Positions 19 through 37,169 of a stretch of DNA of 59,121 nucleotides are shown here, piece after piece. The DNA is taken from the NCBI GenBank assembly GCA_027310565.1, contig DAIDAP010000017.1, positions 1 to 59,121 of the forward strand, read 5' to 3'. The DNA comes from Chloroflexota bacterium. Its GTDB lineage: Bacteria > Chloroflexota > Limnocylindria > P2-11E. The notes under the pieces are model-generated. The model searched no databases, was not told the origin of the DNA, and saw nothing but the letters and a program-made list of their open reading frames with translations. The first letter of the stretch is position 1, and every line of letters begins with the position of its first letter. Position numbers and translations under genes: made by a program.

Positions 19-1631
<1,613 letters not shown>

Positions 1632-33081: not shown

Positions 33082-33849
33082 CTACCTCTCGCCCCCGACG
33101 CGCTCCAGCAGCTCGTAGCCGATCGCCCGCACGGTGCGGAGCGGCTCGCGGCGCCGCCGCCGGCGCTCGTCGCGCGGGATCCGCCAGCGCACGCGATGGA
33201 CGAACCGCAGGCTGTCGTCGAGGTAGCGCTGCAGCGCGGCGGCGTCCGCCCACTCGAGCGCGTGCCGGAACACGCCGCGCCCGCGCCGGCGGAACAGGCC
33301 CTCGCGCTTCACGCGCTCGATCGCGCGGTCGGACGCGCGGTCGTCGCCCAGCGCGTCGCGGCTCGTCCCCAGCGTCCCGATGAGGCGCCCGCCGCGCTCG
33401 ACGCGCGCCAGCGTGCGCGAGTACGGGCGCGCGTCGACGAGCAGCCCGCCGGGCCGCAGGACCCGGTGGATCTCGTGGAGGGCATCGACCATGCCCTTAC
33501 GCGCGATGCATCAGAGGGCCCACGAGAGCACGACGACGTCGAACGACGCGTCGGGGAACGGCAGCTCCTGCCCCGCGCCGACGCGGAACGACACGTTGCG
33601 GGCGCCCCCCGCGCGCGCGTTCGCCCTCGCCTCGCGGATCGCCTTCGGATCCGGGTCGAGGCCGACGACCTCGCGCGCCCAGCGCGCCATGCCGAGCGCG
33701 AGGCGGCCGTCGCCGGTGCCGATGTCCAGCGCGCGCTTCCCGCGGAACAGCGCCGCGCCGCCGTACTCGGCGAGCTCGACCTCCGCGCGCGGACGCAGCG
33801 CGGACGAGCCGGTGGGGATGGAGCGGCCGACGCTAGCCGTGGCGCTCAC
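33082..33849 (-). CDS. Class I SAM-dependent methyltransferase with in-frame TGA; candidate selenoprotein
   Basis: 255 codons from GTG 33849 to TGA 33082, interrupted only by TGA at 33511-33513 (codon 113). Upstream: SAM motif I ALDIGTGDGRLALG (about 40-53), acidic loop VVGLDPDP, then FPDASFDVVVLSWAL. After the TGA: CIARKGMVDALHEIHRVLRPGGLLVDARP, the normal continuation of the fold. Related methyltransferases, as I recall them, have SWSLCC here, so TGA would sit at the first Cys. A 7-bp hairpin with loop GGUCG follows. The gene starts inside the GH57 3' end (17-bp overlap). If not selenocysteine, it is a nonsense pseudogene. Confidence 0.7.
33479..33497 (-). promoter_or_regulatory. SECIS-like hairpin downstream of in-frame TGA
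   Basis: In the mRNA AGGGCAU-GGUCG-AUGCCCU folds into a perfect 7-bp stem with a 5-base loop. The loop starts 20 bases after the UGA, inside the published bacterial SECIS window (about 16-37), and begins with GGUC, as in the E. coli fdhF element. GC-rich coding DNA makes hairpins common, so this is suggestive only. Confidence 0.5.
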
Positions 33850-35512
33850 CCGCGCCGGGGAGCATGGCGCCGCCCGCCGGCGCCGCCTGGCCGAGACGCG
33901 CGGGGTCGACGAGCGGCGCGCGCAGGTCGTCGGGCGGCTCGGCGCCCGCGTACCACCACACCACCTCGAGGTTGGCGCGGAACAGCTCGTCGAACACGAG
34001 GTCCTCGGGGCTCGAGTTGCGGCTCGAGTACCACCAGAACCAGTCGCTGCCCTGCGCGACCATGAGCGGCTGCTGCACGCTGCGCGGCATCGAGCGCAGC
34101 GGCCCCCATTGGTCCTGCGCGAAGCGGCGCGTGCGCTCGAGCGCGGCCCACGCCCGAGCGTGCGTCGGCTCGCCGATCCACACGCGCAGGTCCGCGTCGA
34201 TCCACGACCCGGTGTGCAGGCTCGGGAGCTCCGCGGTCGGCCTGTGGCGCTCGAGGAAGTCGGAGACGCGTACCGTCTCGAAGCGCTGGTCGTCCTGGAG
34301 CGTCCCGTAGAGGAAGCGCAGGAAGTCGTTGCCGTTGTTCGGGTACTGCTCCCAGGCGTTCTCGCCGTCGAGGATGATCGACGCGAGGTAGGGACCGCCG
34401 TCGTCGGGCAGCCGGTCGCGGGCGCGCTCGAGCTTCCAGATGAGGTCGCCCACCGCGTCGTTCGGCGTCATGTCGCCGTACTGGAAGCCGATGCGGTCGG
34501 AGATCTCGCGGTCGCGGAAGATCGCGACGCCGTTCCCCGGGATGCGGTACGGCTGGTAGAGCAGGCGCGGCTCGAGAAGGGCGCCGATGTCGTCGCGCCG
34601 GAGCTGCACCCCGAGCGAGCGCGCGAGGACGCCCTCGTCCGACGCGAACCACTCCAGCCCGGCCTTCGACATCGCGGCCGCGGCCTCGGGCGACACCGAT
34701 CCCTCCGACGGCCACACCCCGCGCGGCTTCCGCCCGAAGGCTCGCTCGTGCGACGCGACGGCCTGCTCGAGCTGGAACGCCGCGTCGTCGGGGTAGGCGA
34801 ACGGCGGGTCGGGCAGCACCGCGCCGGGGTCCGCGCGCTGCGCGGAGCGGTTGTCGATGAGGAGCGGCAGGATCGGGTGGTAGTAGGGCGTCGTGAGGAC
34901 CTCGATCTGGCCGTCGCGCTCGAGGCGGTGGTACAGGTGCGGGACGCCTGAGGCCATGAGGCGCTGCCGGCCGATGACGTAGCGCACGTCGTCGCGCGTG
35001 TAGCGGCGTCCCTTCTCGCGCAGCGCGGTGAGCCGCTCGTCGGACGCGATCTCGTTCGGATCGATCCACGCGAGGTTGAACCACAGCGCGAGGTCGACGA
35101 AGTAGTCGTCCGCCAGCAGCTCCGGCCGGTCCTGCGCGGCCATGCCGAGCTGGAGCAGCCGGCGGTACTCGGCGTGGCGCTGGATGACGTTGCCGTGGTG
35201 GATCGAGAAGAAGCGCCGCAGCATGTGCCGCTTCTCCTCGAGCGTGAGCTCGGCGTCGACCGTGCGCATGGTCACGCGCGTGTCCTCGTCCTCGGCGCCC
35301 TGCGCGTAGTCCTCGATCTGGTCGCGCAGGCTGGGCACCATGGTGAAGCTCGCCTTCATGCGCGGGAAGTCCTGGAGCAGACGCGCCATGTGCAGGTAGT
35401 CCTTCGACGCGTGCAGCCGCACCCACGGCAGCACGAACTCGCTCGACTGCGGATGGCGGTAGTAGGGCTGGTGCATGTGCCAGATGATCGCGACGGCCAG
35501 CTTGCCATTCAT
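33833..35512 (-). CDS. Glycoside hydrolase family 57 protein
   Basis: 559 residues. N-terminal AVAIIWHMHQPYYRH is the GH57 hallmark. The likely nucleophile is E270 in GVWPSEGSVSP and the acid/base D382 in IILDGENAWEQYPNNG, both conserved family positions; LPWVRLHASKDY is also typical. GH57 enzymes cleave or transfer alpha-glucans (amylopullulanase, 4-alpha-glucanotransferase, branching enzyme); which one cannot be told. No signal peptide, so cytoplasmic. It lies 28 bp after lysK in the greA-lysK-GH57-methyltransferase run. Confidence 0.92.
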   Translation of the reverse strand: MNGKLAVAIIWHMHQPYYRHPQSSEFVLPWVRLHASKDYLHMARLLQDFPRMKASFTMVPSLRDQIEDYAQGAEDEDTRVTMRTVDAELTLEEKRHMLRRFFSIHHGNVIQRHAEYRRLLQLGMAAQDRPELLADDYFVDLALWFNLAWIDPNEIASDERLTALREKGRRYTRDDVRYVIGRQRLMASGVPHLYHRLERDGQIEVLTTPYYHPILPLLIDNRSAQRADPGAVLPDPPFAYPDDAAFQLEQAVASHERAFGRKPRGVWPSEGSVSPEAAAAMSKAGLEWFASDEGVLARSLGVQLRRDDIGALLEPRLLYQPYRIPGNGVAIFRDREISDRIGFQYGDMTPNDAVGDLIWKLERARDRLPDDGGPYLASIILDGENAWEQYPNNGNDFLRFLYGTLQDDQRFETVRVSDFLERHRPTAELPSLHTGSWIDADLRVWIGEPTHARAWAALERTRRFAQDQWGPLRSMPRSVQQPLMVAQGSDWFWWYSSRNSSPEDLVFDELFRANLEVVWWYAGAEPPDDLRAPLVDPARLGQAAPAGGAMLPGAGERHG

Positions 35513-35540: not shown

Positions 35541-37169
35541 TCACTTCGCCGCTTCCTCGAGTCTCGTTCGAACGAACTCCGGCGCGAGCGTCGTGATGAG
35601 CCACGCGGCCTTCGGGCCGCTCGGCTTGCCGAGGAACGCGAGGTAGATCGCGGCGAACGCGTCGCGCGAGACCTTGCCGTCGACGGTGAGTCCGACGCGC
35701 TTCGCCGCCTCGTAGAGCTCCTGCTGCATCGCCTCCGGCTCGCGCGTCGCGCCGACGAGCGGCACGAGCTCCGCGAGGTAGCGGCGCTGCGCCTCGCTGA
35801 GCGTCACCGGCGGCAGCTCGGGACGCACCGAGAACTTCGCCTCCTCCGGCGCCCAGCGCGCGAGCCATTCCCGCGCCAGCGCGATCCGCCGCTCGAGGTC
35901 GCTCCGCTCGGGCGCGTCCAGCGGCGCGCCCTTGCGCGCTTCGGCCTCGGCGAACGGCTCGACGCTCGGGATCTGCAGCCAGTCCGCGACGATCGAGAAG
36001 CGCATACGGAAGCCGGGCCGCTCGGGATCCTCGCTCGTCTGCGAGAGCCACCAGACCTTGCCGAGATCGCCCTCCGGCGAGGCGAGGTAGGCGTCGGCGC
36101 AGCGGTCGTACTCGTCGACGAGCTTCGGGATGCTGTCGCCCGTCGGGTCGAAGTCGATGTGCCGGCTCGGATGCGTGCGCAGCATGAGGAAGCGCACCAG
36201 CTCGGGCGGGAAGATCGCGACGAAGTCGTGGGCTGCCGCTCCGAGCGCCCTCCACTCCTCGGGGCGCGAGGTCGACATCTTCTTCCCGCCGATGTTGAGG
36301 AACTCGTGCATGAGCCCCAGGGGCGGCTCCTTCTTCCACACCACGCGGTAGATCTCGTTCGAGCGGTCGCGCGAGCCGCCCGCGGTGAGCAGGTCCTTGC
36401 CGCCCTCCTCGTACGTCACGCCGAAGTGGTCCCACATCGCGCACCACTGCAGGTTCCAGTACAGCTTCGCGCCGCCCTTGAACGGCGACCGCCGGCCGCG
36501 GCGGCCGCAGCCCTCCGCCCACTCGACGAAGTCGCGCCGGCACTCGTACGCGACGGTCTCGCCGTCGTAGTCGTACGCCTCCGTGGTGCCGAGGCGGCCG
36601 CAGCTCTCGCACACGACACCGACCGGCAGCCAGCGCTCGCTGTGCTTCACGTTGGCGACGCGCTCGTAGATCTCGCGGATGGCCGCGGCGTTGCGGAGCG
36701 CGAGGTCGATCTGGCGATCGAGCGCGCCCGAGCGGTAGAGGTCGCGCATCCAGTGGATCTCCTCGGGATGCACGCCGAGCTGCTGGAACGTCGCGAGGTA
36801 GCGCATGGCGTGGTATCGGGCGAAGTCGGAGGCGACCTCGGGGTCCGGCGAGGGGATGTCGCAGAACGGCCTGCCCATGTGCTCGGCCATGCCCGCCTGC
36901 TGCCGCATCGACTGCGAGTCCATGGGGTCATAGTCGTCGATGGTGAAGACATAGCGCACCGCGAGACCGTGCCGCTTGAAGGTGCGATAGAGCGCGTCGG
37001 TGATGATCGGCCCGCGCAGGCCGGAGATCGGCACCGTGCCGGAAGGTGTCTTGCTGTCGCGGATCACGTGGTGACGGCCCGGCTCGAGGAGGCTCGCCTC
37101 CGCGTCCGCCCAGAACGCGCCCCGCGCGGCCTCGGCCGTGCGCGCGGCGCTCGCGTGGTCCGCGGTCAA
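35541..37169 (-). CDS. lysK: Lysyl-tRNA synthetase, class I
   Basis: 542 residues from TTG 37169, overlapping the greA TGA as TTGA. It charges tRNA-Lys. Class I signatures: SGTVPISG (HIGH-like, residues 43-50) and GGKKMSTS (KMSKS-like, near 295). A Cys cluster (VCESCGRLG ... YECRRDF ... GCGRRG) can bind zinc. This is the archaeal-type enzyme found patchily in bacteria, including several Chloroflexota and alphaproteobacteria. Whether a class II lysS also exists cannot be seen here. Confidence 0.95.
   Translation of the reverse strand: MTADHASAARTAEAARGAFWADAEASLLEPGRHHVIRDSKTPSGTVPISGLRGPIITDALYRTFKRHGLAVRYVFTIDDYDPMDSQSMRQQAGMAEHMGRPFCDIPSPDPEVASDFARYHAMRYLATFQQLGVHPEEIHWMRDLYRSGALDRQIDLALRNAAAIREIYERVANVKHSERWLPVGVVCESCGRLGTTEAYDYDGETVAYECRRDFVEWAEGCGRRGRRSPFKGGAKLYWNLQWCAMWDHFGVTYEEGGKDLLTAGGSRDRSNEIYRVVWKKEPPLGLMHEFLNIGGKKMSTSRPEEWRALGAAAHDFVAIFPPELVRFLMLRTHPSRHIDFDPTGDSIPKLVDEYDRCADAYLASPEGDLGKVWWLSQTSEDPERPGFRMRFSIVADWLQIPSVEPFAEAEARKGAPLDAPERSDLERRIALAREWLARWAPEEAKFSVRPELPPVTLSEAQRRYLAELVPLVGATREPEAMQQELYEAAKRVGLTVDGKVSRDAFAAIYLAFLGKPSGPKAAWLITTLAPEFVRTRLEEAAK

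Follow-up and report, generated by a model that had tools for sequence, protein, structure and literature searches.

The locus considered here raises the question of whether an in-frame TGA in a methyltransferase gene of a Chloroflexota soil bacterium is decoded as selenocysteine (Sec), and what role such a residue might have in an enzyme of this class. The DNA analysed, referred to below as the window, is a stretch of 59,121 nucleotides. From the comparisons described in the following paragraphs we infer that Sec is incorporated at this codon, and we place the probability that the gene encodes a selenoprotein at about 0.93.

Translated from the minus strand with TGA read as Sec, the frame gives 255 residues with a single internal TGA at codon 113 (Table 1). 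This bears out an earlier note on this DNA, which had described a frame of 255 codons interrupted only by that TGA and had correctly placed it between SWAL and CIARKGMVDALHEIHRVLRPGG (context SWAL-U-CIARKGMVDALHEIHRVLRPGG). The note had named no strand. The plus-strand frame at 33082-33849 was rejected as the gene; the coding frame runs on the minus strand from 33849 to 33082. The same note had described a seamless methyltransferase core, and the Pfam matches to Methyltransf_11, Methyltransf_25 and Methyltransf_31 are indeed continuous across codon 113, with scores of 85 bits for Methyltransf_11 (cut-off 21) and 85 bits for Methyltransf_25. An AlphaFold2 model of the protein (pLDDT 89, pTM 0.86) has the class I methyltransferase fold. 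With a Pfam domain above its cut-off and a modelled Rossmann-type fold, the product is clearly assigned by fold and domain to the class I SAM-dependent methyltransferases, its catalysis being predicted.

Table 1. Positions of the methyltransferase gene, its putative recoding signals and other features discussed (window coordinates unless a contig is named).
Feature	Position	Strand	Remarks
Class I SAM methyltransferase gene, predicted to contain Sec	33082-33849	-	GTG start 33849; TAG stop 33084-33082; 255 residues
In-frame UGA, codon 113, putatively read as Sec; first position of the U-U/C pair	33511-33513	-	
Codon 114, TGC (Cys); second position of the pair	33508-33510	-	
Bacterial-SECIS-like hairpin AGGGCAU-GGUCG-AUGCCCU	33479-33497 (loop 33486-33490)	-	Covariation, synonymous constraint, energy
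GH57 glycoside hydrolase gene, directly upstream	33833-35512	-	3' end overlaps the methyltransferase GTG start by 17 nt
Archaeal-type class I lysyl-tRNA synthetase, adjoining GreA	35541-37169	-	
Collagen triple-helix repeat protein with a LamG_3 domain	345-1631	+	Chloroflexota genome
selD gene with UGA (UGAKLG)	L047, own genome C8:375542-376465	-	

A hairpin resembling a bacterial SECIS element follows the UGA. It has a stem of 7 bp and a 5-nt GGUCG loop, lies 20 nt from UGA to loop and has a folding energy of -11.3 kcal/mol for the hairpin alone; in loop, stem, spacing and energy it falls within the constraints of the bacterial SECIS model, which were taken from PMC13188914. The perfect 7-bp hairpin, GGUCG loop and SECIS fit reported in the earlier note are confirmed by both the sequence and the model. 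By itself, the window hairpin is weak evidence. The window is rich in GC, and a hairpin of the same quality stands after 3.2% of its TGA triplets; the folding z-score of the UGA region is -0.30, a single-sequence energy that is not unusual for its composition; folding energy was therefore set aside in favor of covariation and synonymous constraint. A search of the window with Rfam returned nothing at gathering thresholds.

The comparison of homologues is more revealing. The UGA, the hairpin and the spacing between them recur in 64 distinct homologous sequences (one spurious frame being left out of this count). Across 52 aligned sequences, 95.1% of cells are paired and two-sided changes occur in 5 of the 7 pairs (16 cells), values reached by none of 500 shuffles. 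Sliding the alignment by 1-3 nt reduces pairing to 25-55%, and RNAalifold recovers the same stem. The extreme cases are L090 (GAGUGU-CGGCG-ACACUC) and L086 (GGCGC-CGUGC-GCGCC), which keep the stem with a different sequence. In 24 close sequences, hairpin codons 119, 121, 122 and 123 (GGC, GTC, GAT and GCC) are each represented by a single codon in 100% of cases, compared with an average of 68% for the commonest codon at 46 other conserved codons in the same sequences. Judged by this codon usage, the hairpin is frozen at synonymous sites. Thus, recurrence in 64 sequences, covariation and the frozen synonymous sites together place the hairpin above chance.

The machinery for Sec insertion is encoded in the same genome (2.79 Mb in 38 contigs, 97.5% complete), where selA, selB, selD and tRNA-Sec, which the earlier note had proposed to look for, are all present. 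More specifically, SelB scores 317 bits against a cut-off of 242, selA lies upstream of selB with one ORF between them, and tRNA-Sec (73.9 bits) carries the anticodon UCA according to ARAGORN. The selD gene (345 bits against a cut-off of 125) itself contains an in-frame TGA, followed by the hairpin GGCGCA-GGUCC-UGCGCC, whose GGUCC loop is close to the GGUCG loop of the methyltransferase gene.

The ORF between selA and selB (L001 924-1328; own genome C20:101992-102393) is one that we take, from its sequence and without a family scan, to be RidA-like (2-aminoacrylate deaminase family). Judging by coordinates, selB is immediately preceded by a RidA-like gene in at least six further genomes of the family (G002, G006, G011, G013, G015 and G017); the selB loci examined in other phyla showed no such gene. 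Because SelA works via an aminoacrylyl-tRNA intermediate, a functional link between the RidA-like gene and SelA is conceivable.

In a search of relatives, most genomes of the window's family yielded homologues that contain a single in-frame TGA or two. When 400 Chloroflexota genomes were searched with a profile, the strong matches likewise carried one or two in-frame TGAs, with the motifs UU, UC and, in L074, CU; the Chloroflexota members are mostly soil MAGs. Members with TGA also occur in Latescibacterota/Gemmatimonadota, in one ANGP1 MAG and in one Thermoleophilia MAG, and a search of plasmids gave no match. The 64 distinct UGA-bearing sequences read SW(S/T)L followed by UU, UC or, once, CU. 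The single CU sequence is L074, in which the motif lies on the minus strand at about position 547 when the locus is reversed. It reads SWSLCUIAPESIV, and no other member found has Cys preceding Sec. Some genomes hold two Sec methyltransferase copies from different branches of the tree (L092 and L022 in G006; L091 and L063 in G138).

As the earlier note had expected, homologues aligned across codon 113 carry TGA or Cys at that codon. Its statement that relatives read SWSLCC stands in part: this form occurs naturally in one archaeal MAG (L119), whereas the majority of relatives carry Sec; Sec-Sec, the more frequent state, had not been foreseen. L119, from a Euryarchaeota MAG, encodes the pair as TGT-TGC, has no hairpin and is the sole genuine Cys-Cys homologue found. 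Its orthology is likely but less than certain, because its long branch joins another long branch on the tree. A search of 200 genomes of its archaeal class yielded no further Cys-Cys forms, the other matches being His-His methyltransferases. Four archaeal methyltransferases (L187-L190) have SLHH at the site of the Sec pair, are alignable over much of their length and may be regarded as candidates for a His-His ancestor state.

The distribution of SelB can be set beside that of the TGA forms. SelB scored over its cut-off in all five TGA genomes tested, and bacterial SelB did not do so in the Cys-Cys archaeal genome. In Chloroflexota, SelB was detected in 43 of 46 TGA-bearing genomes versus 267 of 354 others (Fisher p 0.004, in a test that ignores relatedness), a modest effect because SelB is common in this phylum. 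The three TGA-bearing MAGs in which SelB was not detected are presumably incomplete. One genome of the window's own family (G008) has neither the TGA methyltransferase nor SelB.

Exchange between Sec and Cys was counted on a tree of 71 rows, with 68 homologues scored at the pair positions. The first position (codon 113) is Sec in 66 of 68 and Cys in two (L074, CU; L119, CC), implying at least two changes on the tree. At the second position (codon 114), Sec is found in 47 of 68 and Cys in 21, and the two residues switched at least 13 times. No third residue occurs at either position among the 68 scored homologues of the family. Because UU, UC, CU and CC forms all occur, Sec and Cys stand opposite each other in the alignment at both positions. 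The UGA is thus conserved in frame and exchanged only with Cys, which is the pattern expected of a bacterial selenoprotein. In most selenoprotein families, Cys forms far outnumber Sec forms (PMC13188914); by contrast, Sec at the first position of this family is retained in nearly all members found. In a profile alignment the U-U/C-C pair falls opposite H-H of generic methyltransferases, and outside the family this site is commonly His-His.

These observations bear directly on two ways in which the UGA could have another meaning. It could be a true stop, or a sequencing or assembly error, leaving a pseudogene or two proteins; the two halves are formally separate ORFs (33511-33849 and 33082-33492) in a draft assembly, and chance alone puts a SECIS-like hairpin after 3.2% of TGAs. 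However, the same UGA is found in 64 distinct sequences from several phyla together with a covarying hairpin and frozen synonymous sites, and the sole alternative residue is Cys rather than a random assortment, so that this explanation is extremely improbable. The earlier note had considered random base errors a weak explanation, and the independent homologues with the same UGA make sequencing error implausible. Alternatively the UGA could be read as Trp or Cys through a suppressor tRNA or an altered genetic code, which would keep the frame open just as well. Against this, the genome encodes tRNA-Sec(UCA), selA, selB and selD, selD also uses a UGA, the aligned alternative is always Cys and a SECIS-like hairpin follows the UGA forms; we give a non-Sec decoding almost no weight.

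Decoding as Sec would proceed through SelB, which, with Sec-tRNA(Sec), is proposed to bind the hairpin starting 13 nt after the UGA. In UU members one hairpin would serve both UGAs, its loop lying 20 nt from the first and 17 nt from the second. This would place a vicinal Sec-Cys pair (in most relatives, Sec-Sec) in the loop that directly follows strand beta-4, with a selenolate/thiolate pair standing where ordinary relatives have His-His. In the model, residues 113-114 are preceded by a strand (103-109) and followed by a helix (117-130), which corresponds to the post-beta-4 loop. In class I enzymes this loop borders the SAM pocket on the substrate side. Since the pair is in a loop known to contact that side, the soft selenolate/thiolate pair, which would face the methyl group, may hold a soft substrate (a thiol, a selenol or a metalloid such as As, Sb or Te) for methyl transfer, a role we propose tentatively and at somewhat less than even odds. 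The fuller version, in which tandem UGAs give Sec-Sec via a single SECIS and the resulting diselenol acts in the active site as ligand or nucleophile in methylating a soft substrate, and not in redox chemistry, is possible but is put forward with more doubt. A fold search gave Z values up to 21.8 against solved methyltransferases, the closest being ordinary small-molecule enzymes that include the thiol S-methyltransferases TmtA and GtmA and bacillithiol methyltransferase; these scores are tied across many ordinary methyltransferases and so neither discriminate among them nor point to a substrate.

Because the GH57 gene overlaps the methyltransferase start by 17 nt, the two are probably co-translated in the window's genome, and a GT4 gene is convergent with the methyltransferase gene. 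GH57-like sequence lies beside the methyltransferase in other members of the window's family as well. The GH57/GT4/LysRS/GreA synteny holds only near this family. Among approximately 40 neighboring ORFs, taken almost entirely from loci in other clades, there was no recurring partner and no clue to the substrate; the neighbors in other clades include peroxidase/LigD, HpcH aldolase, TIM, IF-3, an FAD oxidoreductase and a nucleoside kinase, among others.

The main rival to the soft-substrate role accepts the selenoprotein and holds that the vicinal pair is a redox switch, forming a diselenide, selenylsulfide or disulfide that toggles an ordinary methyltransferase without binding its substrate. 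The pair positions are strictly Sec or Cys and always adjacent, as a dichalcogenide would require, and the repeated exchange at the second position with Sec kept at the first suits a resolving partner. This would also agree with a 2026 review, according to which most uncharacterized selenoproteins are thought to have redox functions. However, the pair replaces His-His in the post-beta-4 loop, a place usually devoted to substrate or catalysis in this fold, and no redox partner gene recurs nearby; on balance we consider a redox switch somewhat less probable than the soft-substrate role. The overlapping GH57 gene and the converging GT4 gene, with GH57-like sequence beside the gene in other family members, would also suit an enzyme of the window's family that methylates a glycan or glycolipid made with GH57 and GT4, as in a polysaccharide methylation cluster, Sec being incidental to the substrate. 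This GH57/GT4/methyltransferase set may resemble mycobacterial Rv3030-Rv3032. The loss of the GH57/GT4 neighborhood outside the close family counts against such a glycan substrate, which we regard as improbable. A soft substrate held by the Sec-containing pair is the role that we prefer.

The proposed family would be an additional selenoprotein family that spans several phyla of bacteria and, in its Cys-Cys form, reaches an archaeal MAG; routine annotation would break its genes in two at the UGA. Tandem UGA-UGA on one hairpin would offer a natural test of the minimum distance of the second UGA to the SECIS element, and the presence of two adjacent Sec residues in the loop of a methyltransferase would open non-redox uses of selenium to testing.

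Several known systems invite comparison. The 119 prokaryotic selenoprotein families inventoried in 2026 include the ArsM fusions, MduS, UXPK-star, arsenite methyltransferase and a methyltransferase of DNA repair, but no methyltransferase of the UU/UC kind. Literature searches turned up no account of such an enzyme either, the novelty of the family resting on the inventory table and on NCBIfam, in which no model reaches its cut-off. The window protein and five further members were compared with the NCBIfam selenoprotein models, and their scores are far below the cut-offs of the ArsM, MduS and methyltransferase/UXPK-star families. ArsM selenoproteins (arsenite methyltransferase; fusions NF041536 and NF041537) share with the window's family the SAM methyltransferase superfamily and a UGA-encoded Sec, but have their own motif, UxxG, where the window's family has an adjacent UU/UC/CU/CC pair after beta-4; its members score 28-61 bits against cut-offs of 510-575. 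MduS (NF045649), a methyltransferase domain-containing double selenoprotein, likewise has a methyltransferase domain and two Sec, but it is described by a 338-position model with the motif CxxU, to which the window's family scores 31-44 bits against a cut-off of 380. The methyltransferase/UXPK-star double selenoprotein (NF047649) shares a methyltransferase with Sec and differs in its UxxG motif (35-58 bits against a cut-off of 460). Generic UbiE/Methyltransf_11 class I methyltransferases have the fold and SAM motifs in common with the window's family, but carry His-His or other residues in place of the Sec/Cys pair. By everything that can be computed these proteins clearly classify as selenoproteins, and they apparently form a separate and previously undescribed family of methyltransferase selenoproteins with a vicinal Sec pair, often encoded by tandem UGAs, and what would set the family apart is the combination of tandem UGA-UGA on one hairpin with vicinal Sec-Sec at a His-His site.
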